This document shows, one piece after another, positions 28,886 to 64,000 of a DNA stretch of 64,000 nucleotides; positions within the stretch are counted from its first letter, which is position 1, and every line of letters starts with the position of its first letter. A program made the translations under genes and the position numbers. The notes beneath the pieces were generated by a model. That model made no database searches, was not told the DNA's origin, and worked only from the letters and a program-made list of their open reading frames with translations. The stretch comes from Plasmopara viticola (Eukaryota; Oomycota; Peronosporomycetes; Peronosporales; Peronosporaceae). The stretch is from contig MBPM02000019.1 in the NCBI GenBank assembly GCA_001695595.3, positions 372,001-436,000 on the forward strand, read 5' to 3'.

Positions 28886-28956
28886 GCGCCGTTGGTTTAG
28901 TGGTAGTATATCTCGTTGCCAACGAGATGCCCCGGGTTCGATTCCCGGACGGCGCA
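28886..28956 (+). tRNA. tRNA-Gly(GCC) copy 1
   Basis: The first full-length gene. It differs from the common sequence by GTAGTAT instead of GTAAAAT at the D-arm 3' side, which puts a T-T mismatch into the D-stem. Next copy after 369 bp; spacer TGTA, T3, CAGG, GCAT, s5 region altered (GCGTTTTGTTGGCGG). Confidence 0.75.
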
Positions 28957-29254
28957 CTTTTGTGCTACAAGTTTTTAAGACCTCACATTGACCACCAATC
29001 ATTGTTTTAAGATAGTACGTCGAGCCCACATACATGAGCGATCTATGACACAAGTTTCTTTGCAAGAAGACGAGCATACTAGCCTTCAACTTGACTCTCG
29101 TCAAAATAACAGCGCTTGATACCTGAGACGGGTGTAAATGTATGTGAATAGCATTTGCTGACAGGAATGAGATGTGGGATGCATATTATTGCCTTCTGCG
29201 TTTTGTTGGCGGTACAAAGTGCTTAGGCTGAATAGTAATCTATGATCGGAGCAA

Positions 29255-29324
29255 GCGCCGTTGTTTAGTGGTAAAATATCTCGTTGCCAACGAGATGCCC
29301 CGGGTTCGATTCCCGGACGGCGCA
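29255..29324 (+). tRNA. tRNA-Gly(GCC) copy 2, variant
   Basis: 70 nt: one G is missing at bases 9-10, damaging box A and the D-stem; possibly not functional. Next after 370 bp; spacer TGTA, T4, CAG-type (CAGAGAAAATG), GCAT, ATTGAT. Confidence 0.6.
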
Positions 29325-29631
29325 CTTTTGTGCTACAAGTTTTTAAGACCTCACATTGACCACCAATTATTGTTTAAGATAGTTCTCGTCGAGCCCACAT
29401 ACATGAGCGATCTATGACACAAGTTTCTTTGCAAGAAGACGAGCATACTAGCCTTCAACTTGACGCTCGTCAAAATAACAGCGCTTGATACCTGAGACGG
29501 GTGTAAATGTATGTGAATAGCATTTTGCTGACAGAGAAAATGTGGATGCATATTATTGCCTTCTGCGTTATTGATGAGCGGTACAAAGTGCTTAGGCTGA
29601 ATAGTAATCCTATGATCGGAGCAAGCGCCGT

Positions 29632-29642
29632 TGGTTTAGTGG
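29632..29642 (+). promoter_or_regulatory. box A (shown for copy 3)
   Basis: TGGTTTAGTGG at tRNA bases 8-18 matches the eukaryotic pol III A-box TGGCNNAGTGG at all but one fixed position. It sits at the same offset in every intact copy. Confidence 0.85.
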
Positions 29643-29673
29643 TAAAATATCTCGTTGCCAACGAGATGCCCCG

Positions 29674-29684
29674 GGTTCGATTCC
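29674..29684 (+). promoter_or_regulatory. box B (shown for copy 3)
   Basis: GGTTCGATTCC at tRNA bases 50-60 is a perfect B-box, the main TFIIIC contact. A CAA triplet just before the gene, at the likely start site, is also constant. Confidence 0.85.
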
Positions 29685-29696
29685 CGGACGGCGCAC

Positions 29697-29700
29697 TTTT
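29697..29700 (+). terminator. pol III terminator T4 (shown for copy 3)
   Basis: TTTT begins two bases after the mature 3' end in every intact copy. It is the loop of a perfect GCAC-TTTT-GTGC inverted repeat whose left arm is the tRNA 3' end. Confidence 0.7.
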
Positions 29701-29710
29701 GTGCTACAAG

Positions 29711-29715
29711 TTTTT
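29711..29715 (+). terminator. back-up pol III terminator T5 (shown for copy 3)
   Basis: A T5 run 16-20 bases downstream of the tRNA end is constant in the intact array and would catch read-through past T4. Confidence 0.6.
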
Positions 29716-29829
29716 AAGACCTCACATTGACCACCAATTATTGTTTTAAGATAGTACGTCGAGCCCACATACATGAGCGATCTATGACACAAGTTTCTTT
29801 GCAAGAAGACGAGCATACTAGCCTTCAAC

Positions 29830-29843
29830 TTGACGCTCGTCAA
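29830..29843 (+). repeat. 14-bp spacer palindrome (shown for copy 3)
   Basis: TTGACG-CT-CGTCAA lies about 135 bases downstream of each tRNA. The decayed monomers carry other bases at the same place but often keep the symmetry: ATGACA-CT-TGTCAT in A spacers, TTGACA-CT-TGTCAA in the best B spacers. Confidence 0.75.
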
Positions 29844-29996
29844 AATAACAGCGCTTGATACCTGAGACGGGAATAAATGTATGTGAATAGCATTTTGCTG
29901 ACAGGAATGAAATGTGGGATGCATATTATTGCCTTCTGCGTTATTGTTGAGCGGTACAAAGTGCTTAGGCTGAAAGTAATCCTACGATCGGAGCAA

Positions 29997-30067
29997 GCGC
30001 CGTTGGTTTAGTGGTAAAATATCTCGTTGCCAACGAGATGCCCCGGGTTCGATTCCCGGACGGCGCA
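29997..30067 (+). tRNA. tRNA-Gly(GCC) copy 4
   Basis: Same as copy 3. Next after 371 bp; spacer TGTA, T3, CAGG, GTAT, AATTG. Confidence 0.92.
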
Positions 30068-30367
30068 CTTTTGTGCTACAAGTTTTTAAGACCTCACATT
30101 GACCACCAATTATTGTTTTAAGATAGTACGTCGAGCCCACATACATGAGCGATCTATGACACAAGTTTCTTTGCAAGAAGACGAGCATACTAGCCTTCAA
30201 CTTGACGCTCGTCAAAATAACAGCGCTTGATACCTGAGACGGGTGTAAATGTATGTGAATAGCATTTGCTGACAGGAATGAGATGTGGGATGTATATTAT
30301 TGCCTTCTGCGTTAATTGGAGCGGTACAAAGTGCTTAGGCTGAATAGTAATCCTATGATCGGAGCAA

Positions 30368-30438
30368 GCGCCGTTGGTTTAGTGGTAAAATATCTCGTTG
30401 CCAACGAGATGCCCCGGGTTCGATTCCCGGACGGCGCA
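30368..30438 (+). tRNA. tRNA-Gly(GCC) copy 5
   Basis: Same as copy 3. Next after 368 bp; spacer del, T3, CAGG, GTAT, AATTT. Confidence 0.92.
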
Positions 30439-30735
30439 CTTTTGTGCTACAAGTTTTTAAGACCTCACATTGACCACCAATTATTGTTTTAAGATAGTTC
30501 GTCGAGCCCACATACATGAGCGATCTATGACACAAGTTTCTTTGCAAGAAGACGAGCATACTAGCCTTCAACTTGACGCTCGTCAAAATAACAGCGCTTG
30601 ATACCTGAGACGGGTAAATGTATGTGAATAGCATTTGCTGACAGGAATGAAATTGGGATGTATATTATTGCCTTCTGCGTTAATTTGAGCGGTACAAAGT
30701 GCTTAGGCTGAATAGTAATCCTATGATCGGAGCAA

Positions 30736-30806
30736 GCGCCGTTGGTTTAGTGGTAAAATATCTCGTTGCCAACGAGATGCCCCGGGTTCGATTCCCGGAC
30801 GGCGCA
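30736..30806 (+). tRNA. tRNA-Gly(GCC) copy 6
   Basis: Same as copy 3. Next after 364 bp, the shortest unit, owing to a deletion after ACCACCAATT; spacer TGTA, T3, CAGG, GTAT, AATTT. Confidence 0.92.
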
Positions 30807-31099
30807 CTTTTGTGCTACAAGTTTTTAAGACCTCACATTGACCACCAATTTAAGATACTTCGTCGAGCCCACATACATGAGCGATCTATGACACAAGTTT
30901 CTTTGCAAGAAGACGAGCATACTAGCCTTCAACTTGACGCTCGTCAAAATAACAGCGCTTGATACCTGAGACGGGTGTAAATGTATGTGAATAGCATTTG
31001 CTGACAGGAATGAGATGTGGGATGTATATTATTGCCTTCTGCGTTAATTTGAGCGGTACAAAGTGCTTAGGCTGAATAGTAATCCTATGATCGGAGCAA

Positions 31100-31170
31100 G
31101 CGCCGTTGGTTTAGTGGTAAAATATCTCGTTGCCAACGAGATGCCCCGGGTTCGATTCCCGGACGGCGCA
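31100..31170 (+). tRNA. tRNA-Gly(GCC) copy 7
   Basis: Next after 373 bp; spacer AATA, T4, CAGG, GCAT, ATTGTT. Confidence 0.92.
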
Positions 31171-31472
31171 CTTTTGTGCTACAAGTTTTTAAGACCTCAC
31201 ATTGACCACCAATTATTGTTTTAAGATAGTACGTCGAGCCCACATACATGAGCGATCTATGACACAAGTTTCTTTGCAAGAAGACGAGCATACTAGCCTT
31301 CAACTTGACGCTCGTCAAAATAACAGCGCTTGATACCTGAGACGGGAATAAATGTATGTGAATAGCATTTTGCTGACAGGAATGAGATGTGGGATGCATA
31401 TTATTGCCTTCTGCGTTATTGTTGAGCGGTACAAAGTGCTTAGGCTGAATAGTAATCCTATGATCGGAGCAA

Positions 31473-31543
31473 GCGCCGTTGGTTTAGTGGTAAAATATCT
31501 CGTTGCCAACGAGATGCCCCGGGTTCGATTCCCGGACGGCGCA
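31473..31543 (+). tRNA. tRNA-Gly(GCC) copy 8
   Basis: Next after 371 bp; spacer TGTA, T3, CAGG, GTAT, AATTT. Confidence 0.92.
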
Positions 31544-31843
31544 CTTTTGTGCTACAAGTTTTTAAGACCTCACATTGACCACCAATTATTGTTTTAAGAT
31601 AGTACGTCGAGCCCACATACATGAGCGATCTATGACACAAGTTTCTTTGCAAGAAGACGAGCATACTAGCCTTCAACTTGACGCTCGTCAAAATAACAGC
31701 GCTTGATACCTGAGACGGGTGTAAATGTATGTGAATAGCATTTGCTGACAGGAATGAGATGTGGGATGTATATTATTGCCTTCTGCGTTAATTTGAGCGG
31801 TACAAAGTGCTTAGGCTGAATAGTAATCCTATGATCGGAGCAA

Positions 31844-31914
31844 GCGCCGTTGGTTTAGTGGTAAAATATCTCGTTGCCAACGAGATGCCCCGGGTTCGAT
31901 TCCCGGACGGCGCA
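31844..31914 (+). tRNA. tRNA-Gly(GCC) copy 9
   Basis: Next after 371 bp; spacer AATA, T3, CAGG, GTAT, AATTT. Confidence 0.92.
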
Positions 31915-32214
31915 CTTTTGTGCTACAAGTTTTTAAGACCTCACATTGACCACCAATTATTGTTTTAAGATAGTACGTCGAGCCCACATACATGAGCGAT
32001 CTATGACACAAGTTTCTTTGCAAGAAGACGAGCATACTAGCCTTCAACTTGACGCTCGTCAAAATAACAGCGCTTGATACCTGAGACGGGAATAAATGTA
32101 TGTGAATAGCATTTGCTGACAGGAATGAGATGTGGGATGTATATTATTGCCTTCTGCGTTAATTTGAGCGGTACAAAGTGCTTAGGCTGAATAGTAATCC
32201 TATGATCGGAGCAA

Positions 32215-32285
32215 GCGCCGTTGGTTTAGTGGTAAAATATCTCGTTGCCAACGAGATGCCCCGGGTTCGATTCCCGGACGGCGCA
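32215..32285 (+). tRNA. tRNA-Gly(GCC) copy 10
   Basis: Next after 372 bp; spacer TGTA, T4, CAGG, GCAT, AATTT. Confidence 0.92.
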
Positions 32286-32586
32286 CTTTTGTGCTACAAG
32301 TTTTTAAGACCTCACATTGACCACCAATTATTGTTTTAAGATAGTACGTCGAGCCCACATACATGAGCGATCTATGACACAAGTTTCTTTGCAAGAAGAC
32401 GAGCATACTAGCCTTCAACTTGACGCTCGTCAAAATAACAGCGCTTGATACCTGAGACGGGTGTAAATGTATGTGAATAGCATTTTGCTGACAGGAATGA
32501 GATGTGGGATGCATATTATTGCCTTCTGCGTTAATTTGAGCGGTACAAAGTGCTTAGGCTGAATAGTAATCCTATGATCGGAGCAA

Positions 32587-32657
32587 GCGCCGTTGGTTTA
32601 GTGGTAAAATATCTCGTTGCCAACGAGATGCCCCGGGTTCGATTCCCGGACGGCGCA
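32587..32657 (+). tRNA. tRNA-Gly(GCC) copy 11
   Basis: Next after 371 bp; spacer TGTA, T3, CAGG, GTAT, AATTT. Confidence 0.92.
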
Positions 32658-32957
32658 CTTTTGTGCTACAAGTTTTTAAGACCTCACATTGACCACCAAT
32701 TATTGTTTTAAGATAGTACGTCGAGCCCACATACATGAGCGATCTATGACACAAGTTTCTTTGCAAGAAGACGAGCATACTAGCCTTCAACTTGACGCTC
32801 GTCAAAATAACAGCGCTTGATACCTGAGACGGGTGTAAATGTATGTGAATAGCATTTGCTGACAGGAATGAGATGTGGGATGTATATTATTGCCTTCTGC
32901 GTTAATTTGAGCGGTACAAAGTGCTTAGGCTGAATAGTAATCCTATGATCGGAGCAA

Positions 32958-33028
32958 GCGCCGTTGGTTTAGTGGTAAAATATCTCGTTGCCAACGAGAT
33001 GCCCCGGGTTCGATTCCCGGACGGCGCA
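32958..33028 (+). tRNA. tRNA-Gly(GCC) copy 12
   Basis: Next after 370 bp; spacer TGTA, T3, CAGG, GTAT, AATCT, plus one T lost in ATTGTTTAAG. Confidence 0.92.
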
Positions 33029-33327
33029 CTTTTGTGCTACAAGTTTTTAAGACCTCACATTGACCACCAATTATTGTTTAAGATAGTACGTCGAGCCCAC
33101 ATACATGAGCGATCTATGACACAAGTTTCTTTGCAAGAAGACGAGCATACTAGCCTTCAACTTGACGCTCGTCAAAATAACAGCGCTTGATACCTGAGAC
33201 GGGTGTAAATGTATGTGAATAGCATTTGCTGACAGGAATGAGATGTGGGATGTATATTATTGCCTTCTGCGTTAATCTGAGCGGTACAAAGTGCTTAGGC
33301 TGAATAGTAATCCTATGATCGGAGCAA

Positions 33328-33398
33328 GCGCCGTTGGTTTAGTGGTAAAATATCTCGTTGCCAACGAGATGCCCCGGGTTCGATTCCCGGACGGCGCA
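33328..33398 (+). tRNA. tRNA-Gly(GCC) copy 13
   Basis: Next after 371 bp; spacer TGTA, T3, CACG, GTAT, AATTT. Confidence 0.92.
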
Positions 33399-33698
33399 CT
33401 TTTGTGCTACAAGTTTTTAAGACCTCACATTGACCACCAATTATTGTTTTAAGATAGTACGTCGAGCCCACATACATGAGCGATCTATGACACAAGTTTC
33501 TTTGCAAGAAGACGAGCATACTAGCCTTCAACTTGACGCTCGTCAAAATAACAGCGCTTGATACCTGAGACGGGTGTAAATGTATGTGAATAGCATTTGC
33601 TGACACGAATGAGATGTGGGATGTATATTATTGCCTTCTGCGTTAATTTGAGCGGTACAAAGTGCTTAGGCTGAATAGTAATCCTATGATCGGAGCAA

Positions 33699-33769
33699 GC
33701 GCCGTTGGTTTAGTGGTAAAATATCTCGTTGCCAACGAGATGCCCCGGGTTCGATTCCCGGACGGCGCA
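33699..33769 (+). tRNA. tRNA-Gly(GCC) copy 14
   Basis: Next after 369 bp; spacer del, T3, CAGG, GTAT, AATTT. Confidence 0.92.
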
Positions 33770-34067
33770 CTTTTGTGCTACAAGTTTTTAAGACCTCACA
33801 TTGACCACCAATTATTGTTTTAAGATAGTACGTCGAGCCCACATACATGAGCGATCTATGACACAAGTTTCTTTGCAAGAAGACGAGCATACTAGCCTTC
33901 AACTTGACGCTCGTCAAAATAACAGCGCTTGATACCTGAGACGGGTAAATGTATGTGAATAGCATTTGCTGACAGGAATGAGATGTGGGATGTATATTAT
34001 TGCCTTCTGCGTTAATTTGAGCGGTACAAAGTGCTTAGGCTGAATAGTAATCCTATGATCGGAGCAA

Positions 34068-34138
34068 GCGCCGTTGGTTTAGTGGTAAAATATCTCGTTG
34101 CCAACGAGATGCCCCGGGTTCGATTCCCGGACGGCGCA
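34068..34138 (+). tRNA. tRNA-Gly(GCC) copy 15
   Basis: Next after 371 bp; spacer TGTA, T3, CAGG, GTAT, AATTT. Confidence 0.92.
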
Positions 34139-34438
34139 CTTTTGTGCTACAAGTTTTTAAGACCTCACATTGACCACCAATTATTGTTTTAAGATAGTAC
34201 GTCGAGCCCACATACATGAGCGATCTATGACACAAGTTTCTTTGCAAGAAGACGAGCATACTAGCCTTCAACTTGACGCTCGTCAAAATAACAGCGCTTG
34301 ATACCTGAGACGGGTGTAAATGTATGTGAATAGCATTTGCTGACAGGAATGAGATGTGGGATGTATATTATTGCCTTCTGCGTTAATTTGAGCGGTACAA
34401 AGTGCTTAGGCTGAATAGTAATCCTATGATCGGAGCAA

Positions 34439-34508
34439 GCGCCGTTGGTTTAGTGGTAAAATATCTCGTTGCCAACGAGATGCCCGGGTTCGATTCCCGG
34501 ACGGCGCA
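34439..34508 (+). tRNA. tRNA-Gly(GCC) copy 16, variant
   Basis: 70 nt: one C is missing in the C-run before the T-stem, giving a three-base variable loop. Could be a homopolymer sequence error. Next after 370 bp; spacer TGTA, T3, CACG (then AATGAAATG), GTAT, AATTT. Confidence 0.75.
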
Positions 34509-34808
34509 CTTTTGTGCTACAAGTTTTTAAGACCTCACATTGACCACCAATTATTGTTTTAAGATAGTACGTCGAGCCCACATACATGAGCGATCTATGA
34601 CACAAGTTTCTTTGCAAGAAGACGAGCATACTAGCCTTCAACTTGACGCTCGTCAAAATAACAGCGCTTGATACCTGAGACGGGTGTAAATGTATGTGAA
34701 TAGCATTTGCTGACACGAATGAAATGTGGGATGTATATTATTGCCTTCTGCGTTAATTTGAGCGGTACAAAGTGCTTAGGCTGAATAGTAATCCTATGAT
34801 CGGAGCAA

Positions 34809-34879
34809 GCGCCGTTGGTTTAGTGGTAAAATATCTCGTTGCCAACGAGATGCCCCGGGTTCGATTCCCGGACGGCGCA
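34809..34879 (+). tRNA. tRNA-Gly(GCC) copy 17
   Basis: Next after 373 bp; spacer TGTA, T4, CAGG, GCAT, ATTGTT. Confidence 0.92.
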
Positions 34880-35181
34880 CTTTTGTGCTACAAGTTTTTA
34901 AGACCTCACATTGACCACCAATTATTGTTTTAAGATAGTACGTCGAGCCCACATACATGAGCGATCTATGACACAAGTTTCTTTGCAAGAAGACGAGCAT
35001 ACTAGCCTTCAACTTGACGCTCGTCAAAATAACAGCGCTTGATACCTGAGACGGGTGTAAATGTATGTGAATAGCATTTTGCTGACAGGAATGAGATGTG
35101 GGATGCATATTATTGCCTTCTGCGTTATTGTTGAGCGGTACAAAGTGCTTAGGCTGAATAGTAATCCTATGATCGGAGCAA

Positions 35182-35252
35182 GCGCCGTTGGTTTAGTGGT
35201 AAAATATCTCGTTGCCAACGAGATGCCCCGGGTTCGATTCCCGGACGGCGCA
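35182..35252 (+). tRNA. tRNA-Gly(GCC) copy 18
   Basis: Next after 370 bp; spacer TGTA, T3, CAGG, GTAT, AATT. Confidence 0.92.
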
Positions 35253-35551
35253 CTTTTGTGCTACAAGTTTTTAAGACCTCACATTGACCACCAATTATTG
35301 TTTTAAGATAGTACGTCGAGCCCACATACATGAGCGATCTATGACACAAGTTTCTTTGCAAGAAGACGAGCATACTAGCCTTCAACTTGACGCTCGTCAA
35401 AATAACAGCGCTTGATACCTGAGACGGGTGTAAATGTATGTGAATAGCATTTGCTGACAGGAATGAGATGTGGGATGTATATTATTGCCTTCTGCGTTAA
35501 TTGAGCGGTACAAAGTGCTTAGGCTGAATAGTAATCCTATGATCGGAGCAA

Positions 35552-35622
35552 GCGCCGTTGGTTTAGTGGTAAAATATCTCGTTGCCAACGAGATGCCCCG
35601 GGTTCGATTCCCGGACGGCGCA
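35552..35622 (+). tRNA. tRNA-Gly(GCC) copy 19
   Basis: Next after 370 bp; spacer del, T3, CAGG, GTAT, ATTGTT. Confidence 0.92.
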
Positions 35623-35921
35623 CTTTTGTGCTACAAGTTTTTAAGACCTCACATTGACCACCAATTATTGTTTTAAGATAGTACGTCGAGCCCACATACA
35701 TGAGCGATCTATGACACAAGTTTCTTTGCAAGAAGACGAGCATACTAGCCTTCAACTTGACGCTCGTCAAAATAACAGCGCTTGATACCTGAGACGGGTA
35801 AATGTATGTGAATAGCATTTGCTGACAGGAATGAGATGTGGGATGTATATTATTGCCTTCTGCGTTATTGTTGAGCGGTACAAAGTGCTTAGGCTGAATA
35901 GTAATCCTATGATCGGAGCAA

Positions 35922-35992
35922 GCGCCGTTGGTTTAGTGGTAAAATATCTCGTTGCCAACGAGATGCCCCGGGTTCGATTCCCGGACGGCGCA
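35922..35992 (+). tRNA. tRNA-Gly(GCC) copy 20
   Basis: Next after 370 bp; spacer TGTA, T3, CAGG, GTAT, AATT. Confidence 0.92.
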
Positions 35993-36291
35993 CTTTTGTG
36001 CTACAAGTTTTTAAGACCTCACATTGACCACCAATTATTGTTTTAAGATAGTACGTCGAGCCCACATACATGAGCGATCTATGACACAAGTTTCTTTGCA
36101 AGAAGACGAGCATACTAGCCTTCAACTTGACGCTCGTCAAAATAACAGCGCTTGATACCTGAGACGGGTGTAAATGTATGTGAATAGCATTTGCTGACAG
36201 GAATGAGATGTGGGATGTATATTATTGCCTTCTGCGTTAATTGAGCGGTACAAAGTGCTTAGGCTGAATAGTAATCCTATGATCGGAGCAA

Positions 36292-36362
36292 GCGCCGTTG
36301 GTTTAGTGGTAAAATATCTCGTTGCCAACGAGATGCCCCGGGTTCGATTCCCGGACGGCGCA
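36292..36362 (+). tRNA. tRNA-Gly(GCC) copy 21
   Basis: Next after 367 bp; spacer has a private deletion (ACCTGGGTGTAAATG) and GTGGATAG, then T3, CACG, GTAT, ATTGTT. Confidence 0.92.
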
Positions 36363-36658
36363 CTTTTGTGCTACAAGTTTTTAAGACCTCACATTGACCA
36401 CCAATTATTGTTTTAAGATAGTACGTCGAGCCCACATACATGAGCGATCTATGACACAAGTTTCTTTGCAAGAAGACGAGCATACTAGCCTTCAACTTGA
36501 CGCTCGTCAAAATAACAGCGCTTGATACCTGGGTGTAAATGTATGTGGATAGCATTTGCTGACACGAATGAGATGTGGGATGTATATTATTGCCTTCTGC
36601 GTTATTGTTGAGCGGTACAAAGTGCTTAGGCTGAATAGTAATCCTATGATCGGAGCAA

Positions 36659-36729
36659 GCGCCGTTGGTTTAGTGGTAAAATATCTCGTTGCCAACGAGA
36701 TGCCCCGGGTTCGATTCCCGGACGGCGCA
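36659..36729 (+). tRNA. tRNA-Gly(GCC) copy 22
   Basis: Next after 371 bp; spacer TGTA, T3, CAGG, GTAT, AATTT. Confidence 0.92.
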
Positions 36730-37029
36730 CTTTTGTGCTACAAGTTTTTAAGACCTCACATTGACCACCAATTATTGTTTTAAGATAGTACGTCGAGCCC
36801 ACATACATGAGCGATCTATGACACAAGTTTCTTTGCAAGAAGACGAGCATACTAGCCTTCAACTTGACGCTCGTCAAAATAACAGCGCTTGATACCTGAG
36901 ACGGGTGTAAATGTATGTGAATAGCATTTGCTGACAGGAATGAGATGTGGGATGTATATTATTGCCTTCTGCGTTAATTTGAGCGGTACAAAGTGCTTAG
37001 GCTGAATAGTAATCCTATGATCGGAGCAA

Positions 37030-37100
37030 GCGCCGTTGGTTTAGTGGTAAAATATCTCGTTGCCAACGAGATGCCCCGGGTTCGATTCCCGGACGGCGCA
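37030..37100 (+). tRNA. tRNA-Gly(GCC) copy 23
   Basis: Next after 373 bp; spacer AATA, T4, CAGG, GTAT, ATTGTT. Confidence 0.92.
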
Positions 37101-37402
37101 CTTTTGTGCTACAAGTTTTTAAGACCTCACATTGACCACCAATTATTGTTTTAAGATAGTACGTCGAGCCCACATACATGAGCGATCTATGACACAAGTT
37201 TCTTTGCAAGAAGACGAGCATACTAGCCTTCAACTTGACGCTCGTCAAAATAACAGCGCTTGATACCTGAGACGGGAATAAATGTATGTGAATAGCATTT
37301 TGCTGACAGGAATGAGATGTGGGATGTATATTATTGCCTTCTGCGTTATTGTTGAGCGGTACAAAGTGCTTAGGCTGAATAGTAATCCTATGATCGGAGC
37401 AA

Positions 37403-37473
37403 GCGCCGTTGGTTTAGTGGTAAAATATCTCGTTGCCAACGAGATGCCCCGGGTTCGATTCCCGGACGGCGCA
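37403..37473 (+). tRNA. tRNA-Gly(GCC) copy 24
   Basis: Next after 372 bp; spacer AATA, T4, CAGG, GTAT, AATTT, with AGTTCG for AGTACG. Confidence 0.92.
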
Positions 37474-37774
37474 CTTTTGTGCTACAAGTTTTTAAGACCT
37501 CACATTGACCACCAATTATTGTTTTAAGATAGTTCGTCGAGCCCACATACATGAGCGATCTATGACACAAGTTTCTTTGCAAGAAGACGAGCATACTAGC
37601 CTTCAACTTGACGCTCGTCAAAATAACAGCGCTTGATACCTGAGACGGGAATAAATGTATGTGAATAGCATTTTGCTGACAGGAATGAGATGTGGGATGT
37701 ATATTATTGCCTTCTGCGTTAATTTGAGCGGTACAAAGTGCTTAGGCTGAATAGTAATCCTATGATCGGAGCAA

Positions 37775-37845
37775 GCGCCGTTGGTTTAGTGGTAAAATAT
37801 CTCGTTGCCAACGAGATGCCCCGGGTTCGATTCCCGGACGGCGCA
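37775..37845 (+). tRNA. tRNA-Gly(GCC) copy 25
   Basis: Next after 372 bp; spacer TGTA, T3, CAGG, GTAT, ATTGTT. Confidence 0.92.
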
Positions 37846-38146
37846 CTTTTGTGCTACAAGTTTTTAAGACCTCACATTGACCACCAATTATTGTTTTAAG
37901 ATAGTACGTCGAGCCCACATACATGAGCGATCTATGACACAAGTTTCTTTGCAAGAAGACGAGCATACTAGCCTTCAACTTGACGCTCGTCAAAATAACA
38001 GCGCTTGATACCTGAGACGGGTGTAAATGTATGTGAATAGCATTTGCTGACAGGAATGAGATGTGGGATGTATATTATTGCCTTCTGCGTTATTGTTGAG
38101 CGGTACAAAGTGCTTAGGCTGAATAGTAATCCTATGATCGGAGCAA

Positions 38147-38217
38147 GCGCCGTTGGTTTAGTGGTAAAATATCTCGTTGCCAACGAGATGCCCCGGGTTC
38201 GATTCCCGGACGGCGCA
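38147..38217 (+). tRNA. tRNA-Gly(GCC) copy 26
   Basis: Next after 371 bp; spacer TGTA, T3, CACG (AATGAAATG), GTAT, AATCT. Confidence 0.92.
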
Positions 38218-54501: not shown

Positions 54502-54801
54502 CTTTTGTGCTACAAGTTTTTAAGACCTCACATTGACCACCAATTATTGTTTTAAGATAGTACGTCGAGCCCACATACATGAGCGATCTATGACACAAGT
54601 TTCTTTGCAAGAAGACGAGCATACTAGCCTTCAACTTGACGCTCGTCAAAATAACAGCGCTTGATACCTGAGACGGGTGTAAATGTATGTGAATAGCATT
54701 TGCTGACAGGAATGAGATGTGGGATGTATATTATTGCCTTCTGCGTTAATCTGAGCGGTACAAAGTGCTTAGGCTGAATAGTAATCCTATGATCGGAGCA
54801 A

Positions 54802-54872
54802 GCGCCGTTGGTTTAGTGGTAAAATATCTCGTTGCCAACGAGATGCCCCGGGTTCGATTCCCGGACGGCGCA
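54802..54872 (+). tRNA. tRNA-Gly(GCC) copy 71
   Basis: Next after 371 bp; spacer s3 CACG, s5 AATCT. Confidence 0.92.
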
Positions 54873-55172
54873 CTTTTGTGCTACAAGTTTTTAAGACCTC
54901 ACATTGACCACCAATTATTGTTTTAAGATAGTACGTCGAGCCCACATACATGAGCGATCTATGACACAAGTTTCTTTGCAAGAAGACGAGCATACTAGCC
55001 TTCAACTTGACGCTCGTCAAAATAACAGCGCTTGATACCTGAGACGGGTGTAAATGTATGTGAATAGCATTTGCTGACACGAATGAGATGTGGGATGTAT
55101 ATTATTGCCTTCTGCGTTAATCTGAGCGGTACAAAGTGCTTAGGCTGAATAGTAATCCTATGATCGGAGCAA

Positions 55173-55243
55173 GCGCCGTTGGTTTAGTGGTAAAATATCT
55201 CGTTGCCAACGAGATGCCCCGGGTTCGATTCCCGGACGGCGCA
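55173..55243 (+). tRNA. tRNA-Gly(GCC) copy 72
   Basis: Next after 371 bp; spacer s3 CAGG, s5 AATCT. Confidence 0.92.
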
Positions 55244-55543
55244 CTTTTGTGCTACAAGTTTTTAAGACCTCACATTGACCACCAATTATTGTTTTAAGAT
55301 AGTACGTCGAGCCCACATACATGAGCGATCTATGACACAAGTTTCTTTGCAAGAAGACGAGCATACTAGCCTTCAACTTGACGCTCGTCAAAATAACAGC
55401 GCTTGATACCTGAGACGGGTGTAAATGTATGTGAATAGCATTTGCTGACAGGAATGAGATGTGGGATGTATATTATTGCCTTCTGCGTTAATCTGAGCGG
55501 TACAAAGTGCTTAGGCTGAATAGTAATCCTATGATCGGAGCAA

Positions 55544-55614
55544 GCGCCGTTGGTTTAGTGGTAAAATATCTCGTTGCCAACGAGATGCCCCGGGTTCGAT
55601 TCCCGGACGGCGCA
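55544..55614 (+). tRNA. tRNA-Gly(GCC) copy 73
   Basis: Next after 371 bp; spacer s3 CACG, s5 AATCT. Confidence 0.92.
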
Positions 55615-55914
55615 CTTTTGTGCTACAAGTTTTTAAGACCTCACATTGACCACCAATTATTGTTTTAAGATAGTACGTCGAGCCCACATACATGAGCGAT
55701 CTATGACACAAGTTTCTTTGCAAGAAGACGAGCATACTAGCCTTCAACTTGACGCTCGTCAAAATAACAGCGCTTGATACCTGAGACGGGTGTAAATGTA
55801 TGTGAATAGCATTTGCTGACACGAATGAGATGTGGGATGTATATTATTGCCTTCTGCGTTAATCTGAGCGGTACAAAGTGCTTAGGCTGAATAGTAATCC
55901 TATGATCGGAGCAA

Positions 55915-55985
55915 GCGCCGTTGGTTTAGTGGTAAAATATCTCGTTGCCAACGAGATGCCCCGGGTTCGATTCCCGGACGGCGCA
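55915..55985 (+). tRNA. tRNA-Gly(GCC) copy 74
   Basis: Next after 371 bp; spacer s3 CAGG, s5 AATCT. Confidence 0.92.
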
Positions 55986-56285
55986 CTTTTGTGCTACAAG
56001 TTTTTAAGACCTCACATTGACCACCAATTATTGTTTTAAGATAGTACGTCGAGCCCACATACATGAGCGATCTATGACACAAGTTTCTTTGCAAGAAGAC
56101 GAGCATACTAGCCTTCAACTTGACGCTCGTCAAAATAACAGCGCTTGATACCTGAGACGGGTGTAAATGTATGTGAATAGCATTTGCTGACAGGAATGAG
56201 ATGTGGGATGTATATTATTGCCTTCTGCGTTAATCTGAGCGGTACAAAGTGCTTAGGCTGAATAGTAATCCTATGATCGGAGCAA

Positions 56286-56356
56286 GCGCCGTTGGTTTAG
56301 TGGTAAAATATCTCGTTGCCAACGAGATGCCCCGGGTTCGATTCCCGGACGGCGCA
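56286..56356 (+). tRNA. tRNA-Gly(GCC) copy 75
   Basis: Next after 370 bp; spacer s3 CAGG, s5 AATT. Confidence 0.92.
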
Positions 56357-56655
56357 CTTTTGTGCTACAAGTTTTTAAGACCTCACATTGACCACCAATT
56401 ATTGTTTTAAGATAGTACGTCGAGCCCACATACATGAGCGATCTATGACACAAGTTTCTTTGCAAGAAGACGAGCATACTAGCCTTCAACTTGACGCTCG
56501 TCAAAATAACAGCGCTTGATACCTGAGACGGGTGTAAATGTATGTGAATAGCATTTGCTGACAGGAATGAGATGTGGGATGTATATTATTGCCTTCTGCG
56601 TTAATTGAGCGGTACAAAGTGCTTAGGCTGAATAGTAATCCTATGATCGGAGCAA

Positions 56656-56726
56656 GCGCCGTTGGTTTAGTGGTAAAATATCTCGTTGCCAACGAGATGC
56701 CCCGGGTTCGATTCCCGGACGGCGCA
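56656..56726 (+). tRNA. tRNA-Gly(GCC) copy 76
   Basis: Next after 371 bp; spacer s3 CAGG, s5 AATCT. Confidence 0.92.
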
Positions 56727-57026
56727 CTTTTGTGCTACAAGTTTTTAAGACCTCACATTGACCACCAATTATTGTTTTAAGATAGTACGTCGAGCCCACA
56801 TACATGAGCGATCTATGACACAAGTTTCTTTGCAAGAAGACGAGCATACTAGCCTTCAACTTGACGCTCGTCAAAATAACAGCGCTTGATACCTGAGACG
56901 GGTGTAAATGTATGTGAATAGCATTTGCTGACAGGAATGAGATGTGGGATGTATATTATTGCCTTCTGCGTTAATCTGAGCGGTACAAAGTGCTTAGGCT
57001 GAATAGTAATCCTATGATCGGAGCAA

Positions 57027-57097
57027 GCGCCGTTGGTTTAGTGGTAAAATATCTCGTTGCCAACGAGATGCCCCGGGTTCGATTCCCGGACGGCGCA
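57027..57097 (+). tRNA. tRNA-Gly(GCC) copy 77
   Basis: Next after 371 bp; spacer s3 CAGG, s5 AATCT. Confidence 0.92.
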
Positions 57098-57397
57098 CTT
57101 TTGTGCTACAAGTTTTTAAGACCTCACATTGACCACCAATTATTGTTTTAAGATAGTACGTCGAGCCCACATACATGAGCGATCTATGACACAAGTTTCT
57201 TTGCAAGAAGACGAGCATACTAGCCTTCAACTTGACGCTCGTCAAAATAACAGCGCTTGATACCTGAGACGGGTGTAAATGTATGTGAATAGCATTTGCT
57301 GACAGGAATGAGATGTGGGATGTATATTATTGCCTTCTGCGTTAATCTGAGCGGTACAAAGTGCTTAGGCTGAATAGTAATCCTATGATCGGAGCAA

Positions 57398-57468
57398 GCG
57401 CCGTTGGTTTAGTGGTAAAATATCTCGTTGCCAACGAGATGCCCCGGGTTCGATTCCCGGACGGCGCA
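57398..57468 (+). tRNA. tRNA-Gly(GCC) copy 78
   Basis: Next after 371 bp; spacer s3 CACG, s5 AATCT. Confidence 0.92.
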
Positions 57469-57768
57469 CTTTTGTGCTACAAGTTTTTAAGACCTCACAT
57501 TGACCACCAATTATTGTTTTAAGATAGTACGTCGAGCCCACATACATGAGCGATCTATGACACAAGTTTCTTTGCAAGAAGACGAGCATACTAGCCTTCA
57601 ACTTGACGCTCGTCAAAATAACAGCGCTTGATACCTGAGACGGGTGTAAATGTATGTGAATAGCATTTGCTGACACGAATGAGATGTGGGATGTATATTA
57701 TTGCCTTCTGCGTTAATCTGAGCGGTACAAAGTGCTTAGGCTGAATAGTAATCCTATGATCGGAGCAA

Positions 57769-57839
57769 GCGCCGTTGGTTTAGTGGTAAAATATCTCGTT
57801 GCCAACGAGATGCCCCGGGTTCGATTCCCGGACGGCGCA
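57769..57839 (+). tRNA. tRNA-Gly(GCC) copy 79
   Basis: Next after 371 bp; spacer s3 CAGG, s5 AATCT. Confidence 0.92.
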
Positions 57840-58139
57840 CTTTTGTGCTACAAGTTTTTAAGACCTCACATTGACCACCAATTATTGTTTTAAGATAGTA
57901 CGTCGAGCCCACATACATGAGCGATCTATGACACAAGTTTCTTTGCAAGAAGACGAGCATACTAGCCTTCAACTTGACGCTCGTCAAAATAACAGCGCTT
58001 GATACCTGAGACGGGTGTAAATGTATGTGAATAGCATTTGCTGACAGGAATGAGATGTGGGATGTATATTATTGCCTTCTGCGTTAATCTGAGCGGTACA
58101 AAGTGCTTAGGCTGAATAGTAATCCTATGATCGGAGCAA

Positions 58140-58210
58140 GCGCCGTTGGTTTAGTGGTAAAATATCTCGTTGCCAACGAGATGCCCCGGGTTCGATTCCC
58201 GGACGGCGCA
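58140..58210 (+). tRNA. tRNA-Gly(GCC) copy 80
   Basis: Next after 370 bp; spacer s5 AATT. Confidence 0.92.
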
Positions 58211-58509
58211 CTTTTGTGCTACAAGTTTTTAAGACCTCACATTGACCACCAATTATTGTTTTAAGATAGTACGTCGAGCCCACATACATGAGCGATCTAT
58301 GACACAAGTTTCTTTGCAAGAAGACGAGCATACTAGCCTTCAACTTGACGCTCGTCAAAATAACAGCGCTTGATACCTGAGACGGGTGTAAATGTATGTG
58401 AATAGCATTTGCTGACAGGAATGAGATGTGGGATGTATATTATTGCCTTCTGCGTTAATTGAGCGGTACAAAGTGCTTAGGCTGAATAGTAATCCTATGA
58501 TCGGAGCAA

Positions 58510-58580
58510 GCGCCGTTGGTTTAGTGGTAAAATATCTCGTTGCCAACGAGATGCCCCGGGTTCGATTCCCGGACGGCGCA
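58510..58580 (+). tRNA. tRNA-Gly(GCC) copy 81
   Basis: Next after 370 bp; spacer s5 AATT. Confidence 0.92.
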
Positions 58581-58879
58581 CTTTTGTGCTACAAGTTTTT
58601 AAGACCTCACATTGACCACCAATTATTGTTTTAAGATAGTACGTCGAGCCCACATACATGAGCGATCTATGACACAAGTTTCTTTGCAAGAAGACGAGCA
58701 TACTAGCCTTCAACTTGACGCTCGTCAAAATAACAGCGCTTGATACCTGAGACGGGTGTAAATGTATGTGAATAGCATTTGCTGACAGGAATGAGATGTG
58801 GGATGTATATTATTGCCTTCTGCGTTAATTGAGCGGTACAAAGTGCTTAGGCTGAATAGTAATCCTATGATCGGAGCAA

Positions 58880-58950
58880 GCGCCGTTGGTTTAGTGGTAA
58901 AATATCTCGTTGCCAACGAGATGCCCCGGGTTCGATTCCCGGACGGCGCA
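58880..58950 (+). tRNA. tRNA-Gly(GCC) copy 82
   Basis: Next after 371 bp; spacer s3 CAGG, s5 AATCT. Confidence 0.92.
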
Positions 58951-59250
58951 CTTTTGTGCTACAAGTTTTTAAGACCTCACATTGACCACCAATTATTGTT
59001 TTAAGATAGTACGTCGAGCCCACATACATGAGCGATCTATGACACAAGTTTCTTTGCAAGAAGACGAGCATACTAGCCTTCAACTTGACGCTCGTCAAAA
59101 TAACAGCGCTTGATACCTGAGACGGGTGTAAATGTATGTGAATAGCATTTGCTGACAGGAATGAGATGTGGGATGTATATTATTGCCTTCTGCGTTAATC
59201 TGAGCGGTACAAAGTGCTTAGGCTGAATAGTAATCCTATGATCGGAGCAA

Positions 59251-59321
59251 GCGCCGTTGGTTTAGTGGTAAAATATCTCGTTGCCAACGAGATGCCCCGG
59301 GTTCGATTCCCGGACGGCGCA
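59251..59321 (+). tRNA. tRNA-Gly(GCC) copy 83
   Basis: Next after 371 bp; spacer s3 CACG, s5 AATCT. Confidence 0.92.
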
Positions 59322-59621
59322 CTTTTGTGCTACAAGTTTTTAAGACCTCACATTGACCACCAATTATTGTTTTAAGATAGTACGTCGAGCCCACATACAT
59401 GAGCGATCTATGACACAAGTTTCTTTGCAAGAAGACGAGCATACTAGCCTTCAACTTGACGCTCGTCAAAATAACAGCGCTTGATACCTGAGACGGGTGT
59501 AAATGTATGTGAATAGCATTTGCTGACACGAATGAGATGTGGGATGTATATTATTGCCTTCTGCGTTAATCTGAGCGGTACAAAGTGCTTAGGCTGAATA
59601 GTAATCCTATGATCGGAGCAA

Positions 59622-59692
59622 GCGCCGTTGGTTTAGTGGTAAAATATCTCGTTGCCAACGAGATGCCCCGGGTTCGATTCCCGGACGGCGCA
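59622..59692 (+). tRNA. tRNA-Gly(GCC) copy 84
   Basis: Next after 371 bp; spacer s3 CAGG, s5 AATCT. Confidence 0.92.
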
Positions 59693-59992
59693 CTTTTGTG
59701 CTACAAGTTTTTAAGACCTCACATTGACCACCAATTATTGTTTTAAGATAGTACGTCGAGCCCACATACATGAGCGATCTATGACACAAGTTTCTTTGCA
59801 AGAAGACGAGCATACTAGCCTTCAACTTGACGCTCGTCAAAATAACAGCGCTTGATACCTGAGACGGGTGTAAATGTATGTGAATAGCATTTGCTGACAG
59901 GAATGAGATGTGGGATGTATATTATTGCCTTCTGCGTTAATCTGAGCGGTACAAAGTGCTTAGGCTGAATAGTAATCCTATGATCGGAGCAA

Positions 59993-60063
59993 GCGCCGTT
60001 GGTTTAGTGGTAAAATATCTCGTTGCCAACGAGATGCCCCGGGTTCGATTCCCGGACGGCGCA
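59993..60063 (+). tRNA. tRNA-Gly(GCC) copy 85
   Basis: Next after 371 bp; spacer s3 CACG, s5 AATCT. Confidence 0.92.
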
Positions 60064-60363
60064 CTTTTGTGCTACAAGTTTTTAAGACCTCACATTGACC
60101 ACCAATTATTGTTTTAAGATAGTACGTCGAGCCCACATACATGAGCGATCTATGACACAAGTTTCTTTGCAAGAAGACGAGCATACTAGCCTTCAACTTG
60201 ACGCTCGTCAAAATAACAGCGCTTGATACCTGAGACGGGTGTAAATGTATGTGAATAGCATTTGCTGACACGAATGAGATGTGGGATGTATATTATTGCC
60301 TTCTGCGTTAATCTGAGCGGTACAAAGTGCTTAGGCTGAATAGTAATCCTATGATCGGAGCAA

Positions 60364-60434
60364 GCGCCGTTGGTTTAGTGGTAAAATATCTCGTTGCCAA
60401 CGAGATGCCCCGGGTTCGATTCCCGGACGGCGCA
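60364..60434 (+). tRNA. tRNA-Gly(GCC) copy 86
   Basis: Next after 369 bp; spacer s1 del with private ATGTTTGTG, AATGAAATG, s5 AATCT. Confidence 0.92.
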
Positions 60435-60732
60435 CTTTTGTGCTACAAGTTTTTAAGACCTCACATTGACCACCAATTATTGTTTTAAGATAGTACGTCG
60501 AGCCCACATACATGAGCGATCTATGACACAAGTTTCTTTGCAAGAAGACGAGCATACTAGCCTTCAACTTGACGCTCGTCAAAATAACAGCGCTTGATAC
60601 CTGAGACGGGTAAATGTTTGTGAATAGCATTTGCTGACAGGAATGAAATGTGGGATGTATATTATTGCCTTCTGCGTTAATCTGAGCGGTACAAAGTGCT
60701 TAGGCTGAATAGTAATCCTATGATCGGAGCAA

Positions 60733-60803
60733 GCGCCGTTGGTTTAGTGGTAAAATATCTCGTTGCCAACGAGATGCCCCGGGTTCGATTCCCGGACGGC
60801 GCA
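60733..60803 (+). tRNA. tRNA-Gly(GCC) copy 87
   Basis: Next after 370 bp; spacer s5 AATT. Confidence 0.92.
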
Positions 60804-61102
60804 CTTTTGTGCTACAAGTTTTTAAGACCTCACATTGACCACCAATTATTGTTTTAAGATAGTACGTCGAGCCCACATACATGAGCGATCTATGACACAA
60901 GTTTCTTTGCAAGAAGACGAGCATACTAGCCTTCAACTTGACGCTCGTCAAAATAACAGCGCTTGATACCTGAGACGGGTGTAAATGTATGTGAATAGCA
61001 TTTGCTGACAGGAATGAGATGTGGGATGTATATTATTGCCTTCTGCGTTAATTGAGCGGTACAAAGTGCTTAGGCTGAATAGTAATCCTATGATCGGAGC
61101 AA

Positions 61103-61173
61103 GCGCCGTTGGTTTAGTGGTAAAATATCTCGTTGCCAACGAGATGCCCCGGGTTCGATTCCCGGACGGCGCA
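61103..61173 (+). tRNA. tRNA-Gly(GCC) copy 88
   Basis: Next after 370 bp; spacer s5 AATT. Confidence 0.92.
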
Positions 61174-61472
61174 CTTTTGTGCTACAAGTTTTTAAGACCT
61201 CACATTGACCACCAATTATTGTTTTAAGATAGTACGTCGAGCCCACATACATGAGCGATCTATGACACAAGTTTCTTTGCAAGAAGACGAGCATACTAGC
61301 CTTCAACTTGACGCTCGTCAAAATAACAGCGCTTGATACCTGAGACGGGTGTAAATGTATGTGAATAGCATTTGCTGACAGGAATGAGATGTGGGATGTA
61401 TATTATTGCCTTCTGCGTTAATTGAGCGGTACAAAGTGCTTAGGCTGAATAGTAATCCTATGATCGGAGCAA

Positions 61473-61543
61473 GCGCCGTTGGTTTAGTGGTAAAATATCT
61501 CGTTGCCAACGAGATGCCCCGGGTTCGATTCCCGGACGGCGCA
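61473..61543 (+). tRNA. tRNA-Gly(GCC) copy 89
   Basis: Next after 370 bp; spacer s5 AATT. Confidence 0.92.
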
Positions 61544-61842
61544 CTTTTGTGCTACAAGTTTTTAAGACCTCACATTGACCACCAATTATTGTTTTAAGAT
61601 AGTACGTCGAGCCCACATACATGAGCGATCTATGACACAAGTTTCTTTGCAAGAAGACGAGCATACTAGCCTTCAACTTGACGCTCGTCAAAATAACAGC
61701 GCTTGATACCTGAGACGGGTGTAAATGTATGTGAATAGCATTTGCTGACAGGAATGAGATGTGGGATGTATATTATTGCCTTCTGCGTTAATTGAGCGGT
61801 ACAAAGTGCTTAGGCTGAATAGTAATCCTATGATCGGAGCAA

Positions 61843-61913
61843 GCGCCGTTGGTTTAGTGGTAAAATATCTCGTTGCCAACGAGATGCCCCGGGTTCGATT
61901 CCCGGACGGCGCA
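61843..61913 (+). tRNA. tRNA-Gly(GCC) copy 90
   Basis: Next after 370 bp; spacer s5 AATT. Confidence 0.92.
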
Positions 61914-62212
61914 CTTTTGTGCTACAAGTTTTTAAGACCTCACATTGACCACCAATTATTGTTTTAAGATAGTACGTCGAGCCCACATACATGAGCGATC
62001 TATGACACAAGTTTCTTTGCAAGAAGACGAGCATACTAGCCTTCAACTTGACGCTCGTCAAAATAACAGCGCTTGATACCTGAGACGGGTGTAAATGTAT
62101 GTGAATAGCATTTGCTGACAGGAATGAGATGTGGGATGTATATTATTGCCTTCTGCGTTAATTGAGCGGTACAAAGTGCTTAGGCTGAATAGTAATCCTA
62201 TGATCGGAGCAA

Positions 62213-62283
62213 GCGCCGTTGGTTTAGTGGTAAAATATCTCGTTGCCAACGAGATGCCCCGGGTTCGATTCCCGGACGGCGCA
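62213..62283 (+). tRNA. tRNA-Gly(GCC) copy 91
   Basis: Next after 370 bp; spacer s5 AATT. Confidence 0.92.
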
Positions 62284-62582
62284 CTTTTGTGCTACAAGTT
62301 TTTAAGACCTCACATTGACCACCAATTATTGTTTTAAGATAGTACGTCGAGCCCACATACATGAGCGATCTATGACACAAGTTTCTTTGCAAGAAGACGA
62401 GCATACTAGCCTTCAACTTGACGCTCGTCAAAATAACAGCGCTTGATACCTGAGACGGGTGTAAATGTATGTGAATAGCATTTGCTGACAGGAATGAGAT
62501 GTGGGATGTATATTATTGCCTTCTGCGTTAATTGAGCGGTACAAAGTGCTTAGGCTGAATAGTAATCCTATGATCGGAGCAA

Positions 62583-62653
62583 GCGCCGTTGGTTTAGTGG
62601 TAAAATATCTCGTTGCCAACGAGATGCCCCGGGTTCGATTCCCGGACGGCGCA
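62583..62653 (+). tRNA. tRNA-Gly(GCC) copy 92
   Basis: Next after 370 bp; spacer s5 ATTT. Confidence 0.92.
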
Positions 62654-62952
62654 CTTTTGTGCTACAAGTTTTTAAGACCTCACATTGACCACCAATTATT
62701 GTTTTAAGATAGTACGTCGAGCCCACATACATGAGCGATCTATGACACAAGTTTCTTTGCAAGAAGACGAGCATACTAGCCTTCAACTTGACGCTCGTCA
62801 AAATAACAGCGCTTGATACCTGAGACGGGTGTAAATGTATGTGAATAGCATTTGCTGACAGGAATGAGATGTGGGATGTATATTATTGCCTTCTGCGTTA
62901 TTTGAGCGGTACAAAGTGCTTAGGCTGAATAGTAATCCTATGATCGGAGCAA

Positions 62953-63023
62953 GCGCCGTTGGTTTAGTGGTAAAATATCTCGTTGCCAACGAGATGCCCC
63001 GGGTTCGATTCCCGGACGGCGCA
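62953..63023 (+). tRNA. tRNA-Gly(GCC) copy 93
   Basis: Next after 370 bp; spacer s1 del, s5 ATTGTT (copies 92-93 repeat the 36-37 pattern apart from s4). Confidence 0.92.
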
Positions 63024-63322
63024 CTTTTGTGCTACAAGTTTTTAAGACCTCACATTGACCACCAATTATTGTTTTAAGATAGTACGTCGAGCCCACATAC
63101 ATGAGCGATCTATGACACAAGTTTCTTTGCAAGAAGACGAGCATACTAGCCTTCAACTTGACGCTCGTCAAAATAACAGCGCTTGATACCTGAGACGGGT
63201 AAATGTATGTGAATAGCATTTGCTGACAGGAATGAGATGTGGGATGTATATTATTGCCTTCTGCGTTATTGTTGAGCGGTACAAAGTGCTTAGGCTGAAT
63301 AGTAATCCTATGATCGGAGCAA

Positions 63323-63393
63323 GCGCCGTTGGTTTAGTGGTAAAATATCTCGTTGCCAACGAGATGCCCCGGGTTCGATTCCCGGACGGCGCA
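63323..63393 (+). tRNA. tRNA-Gly(GCC) copy 94
   Basis: Next after 367 bp; spacer s3 CACG, s5 shortened to A. Confidence 0.92.
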
Positions 63394-63689
63394 CTTTTGT
63401 GCTACAAGTTTTTAAGACCTCACATTGACCACCAATTATTGTTTTAAGATAGTACGTCGAGCCCACATACATGAGCGATCTATGACACAAGTTTCTTTGC
63501 AAGAAGACGAGCATACTAGCCTTCAACTTGACGCTCGTCAAAATAACAGCGCTTGATACCTGAGACGGGTGTAAATGTATGTGAATAGCATTTGCTGACA
63601 CGAATGAGATGTGGGATGTATATTATTGCCTTCTGCGTTAGAGCGGTACAAAGTGCTTAGGCTGAATAGTAATCCTACGATCGGAGCAA

Positions 63690-63760
63690 GCGCCGTTGGT
63701 TTAGTGGTAAAATATCTCGTTGCCAACGAGATGCCCCGGGTTCGATTCCCGGACGGCGCA
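63690..63760 (+). tRNA. tRNA-Gly(GCC) copy 95, last in window
   Basis: The following spacer (s1 del, CAGG, GCAT) is cut by the window edge, so the array continues. Confidence 0.92.
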
Positions 63761-64000
63761 CTTTTGTGCTACAAGTTTTTAAGACCTCACATTGACCACC
63801 AATTATTGTTTTAAGATAGTACGTCGAGCCCACATACATGAGCGATCTATGACACAAGTTTCTTTGCAAGAAGACGAGCATACTAGCCTTCAACTTGACG
63901 CTCGTCAAAATAACAGCGCTTGATACCTGAGACGGGTAAATGTATGTGAATAGCATTTGCTGACAGGAATGAGATGTGGGATGCATATTATTGCCTTCTG

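Follow-up and report, generated by a model that had tools for sequence, protein, structure and literature searches.

A giant tandem array of tRNA-Gly(GCC) genes and its satellite-like decayed flank in the downy mildew Plasmopara viticola

Tandem clusters of transfer RNA (tRNA) genes are known from Entamoeba, from Xenopus and from Arabidopsis (the Ser-Tyr-Tyr and Pro clusters), all built of units with spacers but differing in make-up from the locus described here, a tandem array of tRNA-Gly(GCC) genes in the oomycete Plasmopara viticola. We found it in a 64,000-nucleotide stretch (hereafter the window) of assembly GCA_001695595.3, contig MBPM02000019.1 (C19), positions 372001-436000. The closest described systems are those of Phytophthora infestans, which has about 11,000 tRNA genes, about 64% of them in arrays of the same gene, one example being an array of 271 tRNA-Cys genes with a 513-nt unit (PMC9584435). 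According to this source, the monomeric arrays of that species consist of near-identical repeats whose few variants are often near one edge, and the copy numbers of representative arrays agree with read depth; tRNA gene counts are also given there for further oomycete genomes assembled from long reads, and a supplementary legend counts a P. viticola assembly (GCA_001974925.1). As in the monomeric arrays of P. infestans 1306, the array of P. viticola belongs to an oomycete, has a single isoacceptor and a unit of a few hundred bp, and is near-identical throughout with variants near an edge, whereas the species, the isoacceptor and the unit are different; the family lies mostly on one chromosome in P. 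infestans and may do so here. The Gly(GCC) array genuinely belongs with the giant single-tRNA arrays known from Phytophthora and extends them to a downy mildew, with an anatomy described at the level of the unit. Very probably it is a monomeric array of working-type genes, of the P. infestans kind, that has been amplified and homogenised by unequal crossing-over. An earlier interpretation of the same DNA (the sequence-only reading) had assumed that no such array was described in this lineage, an assumption that fails because the P. infestans arrays were already in print (PMC9584435). Our literature search, which left most subscription papers outside, retrieved no paper titled on tandem tRNA arrays of P. 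viticola, and section 9 of PMC9584435 contains neither a nested decayed higher-order repeat, nor a displaced minus-strand block, nor a spacer-core comparison, all of which are reported below.

The searched assembly has 92,937,831 bases in 358 contigs, and C19 was followed for 200 kb beyond the window, giving an examined stretch of 264 kb. tRNA genes were called by ARAGORN and tandem repeats by Tandem Repeats Finder (TRF), and the genome-wide counts of the gene 71-mer and of the box-B pattern were paired with a reversed control; labels such as L003 or L033 denote sampled stretches of the assembly, and arrays other than the main one were seen in such samples. In the window ARAGORN called 107 tRNA-Gly(GCC) genes, exclusively on the plus strand, 12 of them at 16941-27621 and 95 from 28886 onwards. 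The latter form the main array (28886..63761, +, unit of about 370 bp), in agreement with the at least 95 genes in 35 kb that had been read from the sequence. TRF gave an array at 28114-64000 with a period of 370, 96.9 copies and 98% matches, so that the unit length and its continuation to the window edge were both confirmed. The earlier extent was right in reaching that edge but fell short on both sides, since the true end is at C19:450980 (window coordinate 78980) and decayed copies are present already from 16019. The assembled array has 136 copies over about 50 kb, and all 136 genes are Gly(GCC), on the plus strand and head-to-tail, with units of 360-373 bp and 115 of the 135 steps within 370-373. 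The exact 71-mer of the gene was counted 153 times genome-wide and 0 times in the reversed control, so a chance origin is not an issue; 133 of these matches are in the main array, 12 in a minus-strand block of C19 and 5 in the 7 kb sampled from contig C229, and C19, which like the other contigs is unplaced on chromosomes, holds 145 of the 153. The longest exact repeat inside the array measures 2,518 bp, exact repeats of at least 1.5 kb make up 26% of it, and the 146 compared units (135 from the main array and 11 from the displaced block) represent 75 variant types. With a longest exact repeat of this size and so many unit variants, sequencing reads could in principle resolve the array, and the PacBio assembly of P. 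viticola INRA-PV221 was made from reads with a mean of 8,072 bp at about 185x (PMC6660063). For the short-read genome of this species, 320 tRNA genes have been reported (PMC5768699). By comparison, a genome-wide count in the present assembly gave 5399 matches of the box-B pattern GGTTCGANNCC and 408 of its reversed form, which suggests that tRNA arrays are hidden by short-read assemblies.

Judged by its sequence, every unit resembles an ordinary gene of RNA polymerase III (pol III) with transcription of its own. In a representative intact copy of 71 nt (29625..29695, +; 68.1 bits to RF00005), box A (TGGTTTAGTGG) is located at 29632..29642, box B (GGTTCGATTCC) at 29674..29684, and a TTTT terminator, one base past the gene, at 29697..29700, all on the plus strand. 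Of the 136 copies of the whole array, 135 fit the box A consensus (94 of the 95 in the window), while box B is exact and TTTT comes directly after the gene, at an equal distance, in all 136 (and all 95). In window positions 1-34000, which include 14 main-array copies, the Rfam tRNA model scored 68.1 bits in 12 of them and 61.3 and 58.7 bits in the two at the edge. These data substantiate the complete cloverleaf, box B and T-run noticed earlier in each unit, as well as the description of the locus as a tandem array of one isoacceptor with intact-looking pol III genes. With an internal promoter (box A and box B) and a T-run terminator in every unit, separate transcription of each copy by pol III is expected. 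The terminator is closer in the Gly array, whose 136 copies all have TTTT starting with the base that follows the called gene, than in sampled arrays of Glu, Lys, Met and Thr (L004, L006, L031, L032, L034). In these, the first TTTT after the called gene lies at 20 nt in 8/8 Glu and 80 nt in 5/5 Lys copies (L006), and at 90 nt in 10/18 Met and 62-65 nt in 6/6 Thr copies (L004).

The 72-mer spanning the gene is identical in 133 of the 136 main-array copies, and the three variant genes (at 28886, 29255 and about 34439) are all among the first 16 copies. Substitutions per aligned base were counted against the unit consensus, taking unit positions 133-300 as the spacer core and positions 301-371 plus 1-20 as a hot zone. 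There were 2 substitutions in 9718 bases of the tRNA, 9 in 22656 of the spacer core (Fisher P=0.52) and 219 in 12088 of the hot zone. Most unit variants lie more than 40 nt upstream of the gene, and rare ones are located at unit positions 38 and 49 (23 and 12 nt upstream). The tRNA is indistinguishable from the spacer core in substitution rate, and therefore its uniformity mostly reflects homogenisation; with a spacer core as invariant as the gene, the identity of the copies is no proof of selection on each of them, a warning that identical array copies should not be read as selected copies. Furthermore, differences between units grow with distance (on average 5.7 at lag 1, 9.0 at lag 80 and 8.4 at lag 100), and the first 45 of the 135 aligned units show a dimer alternation that none of 500 shuffles reached. 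The identity to a mid-array unit decreases at the edges, being 92.8, 94.7, 96.0 and 96.4% in the four leftmost units and 96.0 and 82.0% in the last two on the right, with most of the others listed at 97.3-98.9%, and this trend was repeated when an early unit was the reference. Edge decay, distance-dependent difference and dimer alternation are marks of unequal exchange, and unequal crossing-over together with gene conversion between units probably shifted the copy number while keeping the array uniform. However, some points weigh against a homogenised array of working-type genes. The tRNA is less variable than the 40 bases directly upstream of it (2/9718 vs 11/5398, P=0.0004), the dimer pattern is missing from the other two thirds of the array (312 and 172 of 500 shuffles reach it), the copies of the glycine isoacceptors follow the rank of codon use (GCC/TCC/CCC: 153/41/33 copies vs 37.4/18.2/7.6 per 1000 codons, three points in all), and the array might include untranscribed copies or have a copy number that the assembler set too high or too low.

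On its left side the array passes through two transitional edge copies (28114..28824, +), 92-95% identical to main units and with a damaged tRNA part, into a decayed flank of ~12 kb (16019..28113, +) that ARAGORN, TRF and alignments describe as a nested higher-order repeat. Its block of about 965 bp is composed of three diverged monomers, whose pieces are 81-90% identical to the mid-array unit, and the 11 aligned blocks have a mean pairwise identity of 96.2%; throughout 16019-28113, blocks are more alike than monomers, as is characteristic of satellite-type higher-order repeats. On average, blocks differ at 17 positions at lag 3 but at about 41 when the lag is 1 or 2 (0/5000 shuffles), and this greater likeness of blocks three apart indicates a second repeat level of about 2.9 kb, from which the last two of the eight lag-3 comparisons (45 and 39 differences) depart. 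Among the 12 flank copies called by ARAGORN, the box A consensus is present in none, an exact box B in 10 and TTTT in all 12. They probably no longer work as tRNA genes and persist as part of a satellite, and the flank illustrates clearly how a gene array becomes satellite DNA. While the repeat pattern is directly visible, the process behind it was probably that edge copies escaped homogenisation, lost their function and were re-amplified as a satellite-like higher-order repeat.

The alternative that survives best, although we find it unlikely, is a dosage array whose copy number is held high by selection for GGC/GGT decoding. In a sample of 22 ATG-to-stop open reading frames (ORFs) of at least 300 aa (16,828 codons), unchecked as genes, the glycine codons GGC, GGT, GGA and GGG were used 18.9, 18.5, 18.2 and 7.6 times per 1000, respectively. 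Gly(GCC) has 153 exact copies genome-wide, and patterns gave 41 copies of Gly(TCC) and 33 of Gly(CCC) on contig C17, counts that miss variants (in the 4.5-kb sample L038, ARAGORN called 4 Gly(TCC) genes where the pattern found 2). The agreement in rank of these copies with codon use leaves room for dosage selection, and the near invariance of the gene sequences (133/136) is in line with it. On the other hand, the spacer core is equally invariant, the codon sample and the pattern counts have the limits just given, and in P. infestans the correlation of copy number with codon use is only modest (R=0.41), the most expanded Pro and Ser families serving infrequent codons (PMC9584435). The very high demand for glycine decoding that had been offered as an explanation of the array is favoured by the rank agreement but remains weak, because GGC and GGT together reach 37.4 per 1000 codons and because Lys, Glu, Met and Thr carry arrays too. 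A scarcity of Gly(TCC) genes was also considered as a case against demand and rejected, as the strict pattern had 2 matches and a looser one 41 on C17. Bulk tRNA-Gly is probably supplied by the Gly(GCC) array jointly with the Gly(CCC/TCC) array of C17, and the exact size of the array is probably untuned by demand.

Much less probable is a chromatin role, which the sequence-only reading had proposed beside a supply of tRNA-derived small RNAs and in which the array or its decayed flank would be a TFIIIC-bound boundary or clustering block. TFIIIC-only (ETC-like) boundaries have box B without box A and bind TFIIIC without pol III. The flank copies, having lost box A and yet kept box B and terminator in the proportions given above, might be candidates for such a boundary, and when the main unit is compared with monomer A, monomer C and the last copy on the right, the T-arm plus terminator shows 6 differences in 120 positions against 83 in 471 in the spacer (P=0.0003); within the flank blocks, monomer A is also little varied in this part (1/429). 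However, the flank copies descend from few ancestors and hence are not independent, the contrast becomes weaker when monomer B is added (14/160 vs 109/628, P=0.007), monomer C has no reduced variation in T-arm plus terminator (10/429 vs 206/10648 substitutions overall), and conversion from the main array could yield the same picture. A chromatin role of tRNA arrays has been raised in the discussion of PMC9584435, and a boundary role has been proposed for the human 1q23.3 tRNA tandem repeat, which shares with the present locus the tRNA-bearing tandem units, has a 7.3-kb unit, varies in copy number (9-43 units per allele) and binds CTCF (PMC4041453).

An assembly artefact, in which the assembler would have lengthened or duplicated a short array, is the least probable explanation. 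In its favour are the mean PacBio read of 8 kb, much shorter than the 50-kb array, and the like units on the 55-kb contig C229, which may be a haplotype or an unplaced piece. Against it speak the variety of units and the limited exact repeats (75 variants in 146 units, at most 2,518 bp, 26% in exact repeats of at least 1.5 kb), the graded decay at the edges, the presence of different genes to the left and to the right in a single 1-Mb contig, and the P. infestans arrays of this kind, which read depth supports (PMC9584435).

Units of the Gly array are also found elsewhere. The minus-strand block of C19 (C19:325925-330743; L029, L030) has 12 whole units, the 7-kb sample of C229 contains 18 genes by ARAGORN, one with a GTC anticodon, and C25 (L036:420-762) has a single truncated unit. 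The blocks start within the tRNA, at nt 37-42 in C19 (nt 37 by BLAST, nt 42 by exact match) and nt 50 in C25, and end at nt 19 and 20, and in this they resemble circularly permuted pieces opened within the tRNA gene. A single inversion splitting the array was considered and rejected, as the flanks of the minus-strand block had no match (E<=1e-10) to the 264-kb stretch outside the array, in a comparison that omitted the 32 kb at C19:340001-372000; with no flank match and both ends inside a tRNA gene, a displaced block fits better. The sampled flanks of the C19 minus-strand block and of C25 had no mutual match except one of 35 bp at E 0.017.

The positions of these ends bear on a further idea, which we regard as distinctly doubtful, namely that retroelements cutting tRNA genes in the D-loop, in an R2-like manner, shape the tRNA arrays of this genome. 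R2 itself cuts its target within the ribosomal DNA. In such a scenario, expansions, rearrangements and scattered blocks would all originate from breaks near tRNA nt 17-20. The idea draws on the Gly blocks that end at nt 19 and nt 20, on a Lys array of C27 that ends at nt 19 and on an insert resembling a short interspersed element (SINE) at the same place of the D-loop. This insert, of 257-259 bp, lies within the D-loops of Lys, Thr and Ile tRNA genes in all 8 copies found by BLAST in L001-L008, L029-L038 and the 264-kb C19 stretch, the last of which had no match. Its copies are at L033:2576-2834, 4554-4811 and 5416-5675, L032:30-286, L003:1577-1832, and L004:667-923, 1889-2160 and 2495-2751; those in one array may share one insertion, so that at least three events are implied. 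Exact duplications of 16-20 bp flank five copies and of 11 bp two others, a rearranged copy giving none; the duplication spans most or all of the tRNA 5' end, and a complete tRNA directly adjoins the insert in 8/8 copies (ARAGORN). By eye, the opposite strand of the insert has words resembling box A and box B, as expected of a tRNA-derived SINE apparently antisense to its host gene, and ARAGORN called no tRNA within it. The Lys array of C27 ends at the D-loop position of the insert, against other sequence whose first bases, by eye, look like those of the insert, and an ORF about 1 kb beyond this end has a zf-RVT match below the Pfam cut-off (E 0.012); Pfam found no family in the reading frame of another putative element. 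By alignment limits, 10 of the 11 examined array or block edges are inside a tRNA gene, the right edge of the Gly array being outside. Apart from the displaced-block starts already given, they are at nt 49 (Gly left edge), nt 19 (minus-strand block), nt 20 (C25), nt 19 (Lys), nt 9 (Met), nt 22 (Glu) and nt 36 and 20 (Thr), although old-edge positions are biased because the gene remains alignable longest. tRNA-specific NeSL-related elements are known outside oomycetes and U2-specific Utopia elements in oomycetes (PMC4640811). Should this lead prove right, tRNA arrays would turn out to be driven by elements of their own, comparable to R2.

The sampled stretches contained arrays of Glu(TTC) on C1, of Lys(TTT) followed by Met(CAT) on C27, of Lys on C140 and of Thr(TGT), in both orientations, on C16. 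A spacer common to the arrays was rejected, since a search of the sampled loci for Glu, Lys, Met, Thr and Ile with the Gly unit gave no spacer match; its sole match there was one of 18 nt to box B, in Glu. C17 has a mixed Gly(CCC)-Gly(TCC) array that, in a 4-kb sample, looks like the dimeric and trimeric arrays of P. infestans (PMC9584435), whereas the array of the window is monomeric. At C17:288719-315664 the Gly(TCC) pattern matches become sparse and lie about 2.65, 3.5 and 6.2 kb apart, which suggests a second decayed flank of the higher-order-repeat type. On one side of the same array, at C17:287301-321263, the 3' 41 nt of a tRNA that combines a Gly(CCC) body with a CCA (Trp) anticodon recur as 35 exact matches, most of them spaced by about 885 bp, and the four whole copies sampled in L038 are identical, with 54.7 bits each. 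Two loose patterns for canonical tRNA-Trp, which may miss genes, gave 7 matches vs 9 in the control and 10 vs 13. Lone array copies with an altered anticodon were seen at L035:5116-5187 (Gly(GCC) body with GTC) and L037:758-832 (Gly(TCC) body with TTC).

Outside the array, its left neighbour (14130..15824, +) encodes a calponin-homology protein (PF00307, E 6.6e-41). To the right, the one decayed copy (82%) is followed by a UFC1-like gene (L010:5771-6223), with PF08694 over its first 100 codons and an in-frame stop at codon 120. Its later part seems, by eye, to run on in another frame, for which a sequence error, an intron or a pseudogene are candidate causes.

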